NCBI GenBank assembly: GCA_015520735.1
Contig: WAPN01000026.1
Span: 1 to 64,000 of the forward strand
Length of the DNA: 64,000 bases
Source of the DNA: Desulfurococcales archaeon
GTDB taxonomy: Archaea; Thermoproteota; Thermoprotei_A; Sulfolobales; Desulfurococcaceae
Reading direction: 5' to 3'
Part shown: positions 12,627 through 16,518 of the stretch, one piece after another
How positions within the stretch are numbered: position 1 is the first letter of the stretch
Layout of the letters: each line of letters starts with the position of its first letter
Notes under the pieces: generated by a model
Seen by the model: only the letters and a program-made list of their open reading frames with translations
Databases searched by the model: none
Told to the model about the DNA's origin: nothing
Position numbers and translations under genes: made by a program

Positions 12627-12699
12627 GGAAACATTACCCAATACTCCTAGGCATAGACATTATGATTGAATGGAGGGAACAAGCACTAGACGGAGATGA

Positions 12700-14529: not shown

Positions 14530-14642
<113 letters not shown>

Positions 14643-15106: not shown

Positions 15107-15613
15107 ATGGTAGTTTACATGGCCGAAGATAATCCAAGGAAGAATACGAGTTTGAAAATGGTCAGGCACGGCCTAGCATTCCGTGTCCACCCGAGAAGGA
15201 TCAAGGGATGGCCCTTGGTCCTCGACCCTTACAGCGACGAGTATCTGGGCCCGTGGAACCGGGGGGTTATCGAGAAACACGGCCTACTAGTATACGACTG
15301 CAGCTGGAAGAAACTAGCAAAACACAGAACAATACATGTCAGGGGCCTCCACAGGAAACTACCACCCCTCCTACCCGGAAACCCGATCAACTATGCAAGG
15401 CCCTGCATGTTATCATCAATCGAGGCCGTCGCCGCAGCACTATACATCACAGGTTACCTTGATCTCTACGAGAAGCTCCTCGGCCTCTACAAGTGGATGA
15501 ACACGTTCCATACTCTTAACGGGGAACTATTAAGGGAATATAACAGGGCGGAAAACCCCGAGATGCTCTGCCGTATCATACGTGATTTCTGGGGCGACCG
15601 TGTGCCTTGTTGA
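15107..15613 (+). CDS. tsr3: Tsr3-type rRNA aminocarboxypropyltransferase
   Basis: A 168-residue SPOUT-like enzyme (DUF367) that transfers the 3-amino-3-carboxypropyl group of SAM to a hypermodified pseudouridine of small-subunit rRNA. Family marks: a start with an acidic DNPRKNTSLKMVRHG segment, LDPYS, YDCSWKK, and the SAM-site region LLPGNPINYARPCMLSSIEAVAAAL. ATG at 15107 gives the usual N-terminus; a TTG at 15095 is possible. It abuts the predicted replication origin. Confidence 0.93.
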   Translation: MVVYMAEDNPRKNTSLKMVRHGLAFRVHPRRIKGWPLVLDPYSDEYLGPWNRGVIEKHGLLVYDCSWKKLAKHRTIHVRGLHRKLPPLLPGNPINYARPCMLSSIEAVAAALYITGYLDLYEKLLGLYKWMNTFHTLNGELLREYNRAENPEMLCRIIRDFWGDRVPC

Positions 15614-15622
15614 CTGGTGCAT

Positions 15623-15661
15623 GTGTAACCCCCCGGTTATACCCCATTGTTTCCACTCCAT
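15623..15661 (-). repeat. ORB-like element 1
   Basis: Minus strand reads GGAGTGGAAACAATGGGGT, then ATAACCGGGGGGTTACAC. It has a mini-ORB core (TGGAAAC...GGGG) and a second G-string in an inverted TAACC/GGTTA context. It faces away from the AT-rich core. Confidence 0.68.
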
Positions 15662-15721
15662 GAGACCCGGACACTACATCGGACATCTTAACAGGTGATT
15701 TACTAAGGATAGGCATAACCC

Positions 15722-15760
15722 GATAACTCCCCAGTTACTCCCTATGATTTCAACTGGAAA
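15722..15760 (-). repeat. ORB-like element 2
   Basis: Minus strand reads TTTCCAGTTGAAATCATAGG, then GAGTAACTGGGGAGTTATC. It has the same two-part layout as element 1 with some drift in the G-strings. Confidence 0.62.
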
Positions 15761-15784
15761 AATTCACCAAACATAGTACCGTCA

Positions 15785-15811
15785 GTCACCCCTTTATTTC
15801 TTTTGGAGAGG
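15785..15811 (-). repeat. ORB-like element 3, degenerate
   Basis: Minus strand reads CCTCTCCAAAAGAAATAAAG followed by GGGTGAC. The spacing between the CTCC...GAAA half and the GGGG string matches a mini-ORB, but the core is weaker. Confidence 0.5.
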
Positions 15812-16009
15812 AGATAGTGAGGTTTGGAGAAACGGAGCTGACTAGGTAGTAATTATGTATTATATTTATATGAATTATCTTATCATAATATAATGATATT
15901 TATTTGTTTGTATAATGATATTATACTTATCTTAAATCTAAAATGTCCATTATATCATTGTCTACAAATATAGTTCTTATTCTATATTTTCGAATTATGG
16001 TTCAATCCG

Positions 16010-16040
16010 CTTATCCAGTGGAAGGAGAGGGGTCTGGGCG
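16010..16040 (+). repeat. ORB-like element 4
   Basis: Plus strand reads TTATCCAGTGGAAGGAGAGG then GGTCTGGGCG. TCCAGTGGAA...GGGG is the closest match to the archaeal ORB core in this region. It lies immediately right of the AT-rich core and in inverted orientation to elements 1-3. Confidence 0.68.
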
Positions 16041-16071
16041 TTTTGGATAATATTTATATATTACATGTTTT

Positions 16072-16108
16072 GTTAACCGGGGGGTTTTACTCTACGATTT
16101 CCACTCCA
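16072..16108 (-). repeat. ORB-like element 5
   Basis: Plus strand reads GTTAACCGGGGGGTTTTACT, then CTACGATTTCCACTCC. It contains the GGAGTGGAAATCG half (minus strand) and the TAACC-G6 box, with the G-run strand reversed relative to element 1. Confidence 0.6.
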
Positions 16109-16163
16109 ACCGGGCAATACACGGGTCTATATGAAATTAAAGGAGGATTACTATAACTAGTAT

Positions 16164-16518
16164 TCGGAGGCGCCGGGGAAGGGCCGGGCTACCTACGCCC
16201 CCGCAGAGGGGGTGAGGAAACTCCGCACTCCCCGTGGGGCCACGGCCCCGAAACGGGGCACGGGTAGGACCCGTGGCAACGGCACAGAAACGGCACGTCC
16301 ACCGCTTAGATGGCGATGAGGCGGCGTGGTCGCCCCGGCGACGGGGCGACGGCAACCCGTCGAGGACGGCGGTGGTTGCGTTGAAACGGCCGTCCCGTGG
16401 GGAGCAAGGCCTCCGGCGGCTCCGGGGGGATGAGGCCCACGCGATCCCCGATGGGGGCCGCTTAGTCGAATGTAGCCGTTAACAGAATGCGGGTTACGAG
16501 CCTTTCCCTGGCGCCCCT
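16164..16518 (+). ncRNA. rnpB: RNase P RNA, archaeal type A
   Basis: A GC-rich block of about 350 bases with the universal RNase P landmarks. CR-I/P4 GAGGAAACTCCGCACTCC starts at 16213, ACAGAAACGGCAC follows near 16287, and the CR-V/P4 partner ACAGAATGCGGGTTACGAGC is near 16482. The ends pair to form P1 (GGCGCCGGGGAAGG at 16169 with CCTTTCCCTGGCGCC at 16501). With its proteins it trims tRNA 5' leaders. T-runs follow. Confidence 0.93.

Follow-up and report, generated by a model that had tools for sequence, protein, structure and literature searches.

The locus examined here raises the question of whether a gene-free gap, with no cdc6 gene in its vicinity, may be a chromosomal replication origin. 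Our analysis of the 64,000-nucleotide stretch that contains it (the window), and of related genomes, leads us to read the site, with a probability of roughly 0.9, as an origin of chromosome replication of the oriC1 type in a Desulfurococcaceae-like archaeon; this reading rests on sequence evidence.

The region between tsr3 and rnpB

The gap is flanked by two well-recognizable markers on the forward strand, tsr3 (15119-15613; PF04034 Ribo_biogen_C, E 5.6e-37) and the archaeal RNase P RNA gene rnpB (16176-16508; RF00373, 169.1 bits). The original prediction had described the space between them as devoid of genes, and this was confirmed: there is no gene between 15613 and 16176, and the intergenic sequence (15614-16175) contains no open reading frame of at least 60 amino acids. 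Upstream of tsr3 and of the origin region lies a tRNA gene (14530-14639) which, being 110 bp long, probably carries an intron. The GC content of the window changes from ca. 0.47 over its first 27 kb to ca. 0.38 over positions 27000-64000.

Origin recognition boxes flank the AT-rich core

The region was searched with the 'common' ORB motif of DoriC (TCCA[CG]T[TG]GAAA[TC][GA]AAGGGGT; PMC4164010), which is independent of this genome. Three sites were found in the 550-bp region at up to 3 mismatches and four at up to 4, compared to means of 0.001 and 0.006 sites, respectively, and a maximum of 1, in 2,000 dinucleotide shuffles of the same region; the rest of the window has no site at up to 3 mismatches and two at 4. 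The bare core TCCANTGGAAA was also tried as a marker and rejected as unspecific (66 genome matches at up to 1 mismatch vs 50 in the reversed control), and a full ORB profile was therefore used instead. This profile (R1, 35 columns) was built from full-length ORBs; its training set included some of the loci later recovered with it, the Sulfolobaceae and genomes G009, G023 and G080 being outside the set. When the genome was scanned with R1, the best four matches all fell at this locus (E 1.9e-5 to 4.6e-3, these copies being part of the training set), and the fifth, on another contig, had an E of 0.064. The motif is thus not scattered widely through the genome; wide scattering had been named beforehand as an outcome that would speak against an origin.

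Five copies of a two-part motif had been predicted, and five are present. To the left of the core, on the reverse strand, are ORB A (15626-15660), a full-length copy TGGAGTGGAAACAATGGGGTATAACCGGGGGGTTA with a distal G box and the top profile match in the genome (E 1.9e-5); ORB B (15724-15758), also full-length with a distal G box (genome-wide profile E 4.9e-5); and the inner ORB E (15788-15807; TCCAAAAGAAATAAAGGGGT), next to the AT-rich core. They display 3 (at 15641-15660), 4 (at 15739, reverse strand) and 3 mismatches to the DoriC motif, and identities of 89% (across three congeners), 83% and 95% in the congeners, respectively. The inner right copy, ORB D (16014-16033, forward strand; TCCAGTGGAAGGAGAGGGGT), has 3 mismatches, a profile E of 0.0028 and 80% identity in the congeners. 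ORBs E and D form an inverted pair on either side of the AT-rich core. The outermost right copy, ORB C (16074-16108, reverse strand; genome-wide profile E 0.0046), is weak: its core is divergent, it is missing among the sites with up to 5 mismatches to the DoriC motif, and its identity to ORB A is 71%, with the distal box kept and its G box in the opposite sense. The outward polarity claimed for the left copies and for the right copy near 16010 was borne out, as the G run points away from the core in ORBs A, B and E and in the copy at 16014; ORB C points inward.

The long C6/G6-GGTTA boxes attached to some copies had been suggested to be species-specific. This was not the case, as the same ACCGGGGGGTTA stands after an ORB in both Aeropyrum pernix Ori1 and Sulfolobus acidocaldarius oriC1; by this comparison, the long G boxes of ORBs are order-wide. 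Across the order, the outer ORBs have a distal box of approximately AAC[CT]GGGG[AG]GTT, which is seen in both senses (as a G run or a C run) and at a similar distance from the ORB core; copies are found at 15626-15639, 15724-15737 and 16074-16086 of the window, and at L144 7411, L145 8300, L146 7911, L147 11371 and L149 3164 and 3506. With its symmetric AAC..GTT ends, it resembles a separate site.

The AT-rich core contains a ucm element

The very AT-rich core of the original prediction was readily located: positions 15847-15996, with 84% AT, are the top 150 bp for AT in the window, and 15847-15946 are its highest-AT 100 bp. We presume this segment to be the duplex unwinding element. The repeat TATAATGATATT, also predicted, is indeed present in two copies, starting at 15889 and 15911; in the congener alignment the first copy is unconserved, and only the second, which overlaps the ucm, is conserved. 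The ucm itself (15906-15916, reverse strand; ATTATACAAAC on this strand, GTTTGTATAAT on the forward one) was absent from the earlier account, although it is a key element of the core. It is a predicted UBP site and matches the published ucm at 11 of 11 positions, the reference being taken from the affinity oligonucleotides, wild-type vs mutated, in Dhanaraju et al. 2025 (PMC12141716). In that study ucm was bound by UBP, which contacts MCM, and mutation of ucm rendered oriC1 firing undetectable in S. islandicus (PMC12141716). The exact ucm string occurs four times in the 1.53-Mb genome and is not commoner than its reversed control; its significance therefore lies in its position within the core and in its conservation.

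A UBP orthologue is encoded on another contig (C21:46612-46938; 47% identity, E 6.9e-22). The UBP gene was picked out by listing basic open reading frames of fitting size, and the query sequence was compared with the crystal chains of UBP (9efd/9eff) as a check. Both features of a ucm/UBP-type origin are thus present: the unwinding region carries a ucm, and the genome encodes a UBP orthologue.

Initiator genes lie elsewhere

The genome has two Cdc6 genes, one on contig C9 and the other on contig C37. As the original prediction stated, no cdc6 gene is found near the origin. The C9 protein is the orthologue of Orc1-1, its best matches being Cdc6-1 of S. solfataricus (2qby_A, E 1.7e-100) and ORC1 of A. 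pernix (2v1u, E 8.6e-94); those of the C37 protein were 1fnn and A. pernix ORC2. An initiator gene adjoining an archaeal origin is usual, not universal, and at this origin such adjacency is missing, with orc1-1 on a different contig. In the congener G001, a Cdc6 gene with the length and score of that on C9 is located at C26:527,776, ca. 128 kb from the origin. The surroundings of the cdc6 genes that we checked, here and in relatives, contain no ORB at up to 4 mismatches and no exact ucm, the one exception being a single 4-mismatch site in the relative L080.

Conservation and linkage to rnpB

In a three-way alignment with the congeners G001 and G004, identity is 84% over the ORBs and ucm and 43% over the remainder; ucm alone is 100% identical and occupies the same place in all three. 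An exact ucm, or one with a single change, stands upstream of rnpB in most of the readable Desulfurococcaceae. When ucm followed by TCCANNNGAA within 260 bp was used as a pattern, it was found in 12 of 40 Desulfurococcaceae genomes, once in each, and comparison with the rnpB coordinates placed all 12 matches at the rnpB locus; the reversed control gave one match in the 40 genomes. In 23 of 24 Desulfurococcaceae genomes and in 24 of 29 Sulfolobaceae, no more than 10 kb separate rnpB from the top ORB-profile match; in two more of the latter the two are perhaps close across record ends. In most genomes of families f2 and f6, this linkage of the top ORB-profile match to rnpB is missing.

Strand-composition skew

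A switch in strand composition, proposed earlier as a check of the origin, was found at the site, and it is a local, not a global, signal. On the contig of the window, the cumulative GC curve reaches its minimum at 12,647, and the keto curve at 15,792. The 627-kb contig of congener G001 (C26; JALVYU010000026.1) carries the orthologous origin at ca. 399.3 kb. Its strongest keto switch is at 396-399.5 kb (20-, 30- and 40-kb arms) and its strongest GC switch at 403 kb (10-, 20- and 30-kb arms), so that the peaks fall at 396-403 kb at most arm lengths. The keto switch at the origin is weaker with 10- and 60-kb arms, the GC switch with 40-kb arms peaks at 506 kb, away from the origin, and the global cumulative minimum, at 562 kb, is not at the origin either.

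The same congener contig displays a second GC-skew switch at ca. 506000-522000, close to orc1-1 at 527.8 kb and without an ORB cluster. It may mark a second origin, of a different type; a chromosome with several origins would be expected to show such a switch.

Comparison with mapped origins

For comparison with A. pernix we used genome G048 (1,669,696 bp), which we take to be strain K1 and in which rnpB occupies 445,322-445,647 on the reverse strand. The published coordinates of A. pernix Ori1 are 444,909-445,231 (PMC8287685), and the mapped origin therefore lies 91 bp from rnpB. Reading of the sequence and a motif scan located ORBs within the published interval. Like the present site, A. pernix oriC1/Ori1 adjoins rnpB, has ORBs flanking an AT-rich region, shares the distal box, and is without cdc6 in the 20 kb examined. 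It differs in lying on the 3' side of rnpB, as opposed to the 5' side here, in being shorter, in its inner ORB sequences, and in having no ucm at 0 or 1 mismatch in the 20-kb stretch.

Similarities are also seen in oriC1 of Sulfolobus/Saccharolobus, where an inverted inner ORB pair surrounds an AT core with ucm, an outer full-length ORB is accompanied by a G box, and the neighborhood contains rnpB, tsr3, an AsnC-like gene, Sec61-beta and Elf1. In genome G151 (2,225,959 bp), presumably S. acidocaldarius DSM 639, the order of the cluster is cdc6-1, ORB, ORB, ucm, ORB, with Elf1, Sec61-beta, tsr3 and the AsnC-like gene within 8 kb. There are three ORBs there and five here, and in the Sulfolobaceae orc1-1 adjoins the origin, whereas here it is on another contig. 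Sulfolobus oriC2 (orc1-3) and oriC3 (whiP) are likewise chromosomal origins of the same order with a ucm (PMC12141716); however, oriC2 has mini-ORBs and Orc1-3, and oriC3 neither ORB type (PMC4010727), unlike the full-length ORBs of the present site. By its position, the site is thus orthologous to A. pernix oriC1 and Sulfolobus oriC1-cdc6-1, and is not a new kind of origin. In the literature searched, coverage of which was incomplete, we found no report of an rnpB-linked origin in Desulfurococcaceae, and no publication stating that an origin kept its rnpB/tsr3 neighborhood with the initiator gene far off.

Proposed mechanism and alternative explanations

By homology to oriC1 of A. pernix and of Sulfolobus, Orc1-1, encoded on C9, would bind all five ORBs, the inverted inner pair E and D as well as the outer A, B and C, and would distort the AT core and recruit MCM. 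UBP, encoded on C21, would bind the ucm in the core and aid the departure of MCM, giving rise to two outgoing forks. The DNA itself shows the cis elements and the genes encoding Orc1-1 and UBP; it is by homology that we infer binding of the two proteins, melting and firing at the site.

One alternative scenario is that the boxes are sites at which Orc1-1 or another regulator controls transcription of rnpB or tsr3, the AT stretch being a promoter region. The outermost box does end 68 bp upstream of rnpB, and Orc1/Cdc6 paralogues can regulate, as described for Orc1-2 (PMC9738581). However, the mapped A. pernix Ori1 is on the 3' side of rnpB, and the Sulfolobaceae cluster is 2-6 kb from rnpB, beside cdc6-1; across the order, the boxes are not confined to the 5' side of rnpB. 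A promoter would also have no need of several full-length ORBs, of an inverted inner pair, of a ucm or of a skew switch. Since the position of the boxes is not tied to the rnpB promoter, we have rejected this explanation, which we regard as highly improbable. A somewhat less remote, still unlikely, scenario is that of an ancestral oriC1 which has kept its ORBs and is now dormant or minor, with another origin, for example near orc1-1, doing most of the work. Dormant archaeal origins are documented in Haloferax mediterranei (PMC4595724), and the congener contig has its second GC-skew switch (506-522 kb) close to its cdc6 gene (527.8 kb), which would be in line with such a scenario. Against this, the ORBs and ucm are strongly conserved and a skew switch is present at the site, whereas the surroundings of the cdc6 genes are without ORBs (up to 4 mismatches) or an exact ucm, save for the 4-mismatch site in the relative L080. 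We therefore favor the Orc1-type origin of the original prediction, as it is the sole reading that covers the ORBs, the exact ucm, the AT core, the skew switch, the conservation and the positional orthology to mapped origins.

Implications

This site would escape an origin finder anchored on cdc6; a search built on rnpB, ucm and ORBs recovers the origin in much of the Desulfurococcaceae at once. The recently described ucm/UBP origin element is hereby extended to another family, with exact conservation of its sequence.

The noteworthy part is evolutionary: the origin has stayed by rnpB/tsr3, with its initiator gene far away. Tight linkage between replicator and initiator is a frequent assumption for archaeal origins. 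Our proposal, which we consider evenly balanced between right and wrong, is that the oriC1 replicator of the Desulfurococcaceae is apart from orc1-1 (ca. 130 kb, with no ORBs found there) and has been locked to rnpB/tsr3 for as long as the order has existed. If true, the distal G4/C4 box of the outer ORBs, present in both senses and at similar spacing, would be a conserved element in its own right; tight replicator-initiator linkage would be dispensable, and some feature of the rnpB locus would keep the origin in place. An ancient origin that stays put with its initiator gene elsewhere would then offer a clean comparative case in which the idea of cis-linkage is testable.
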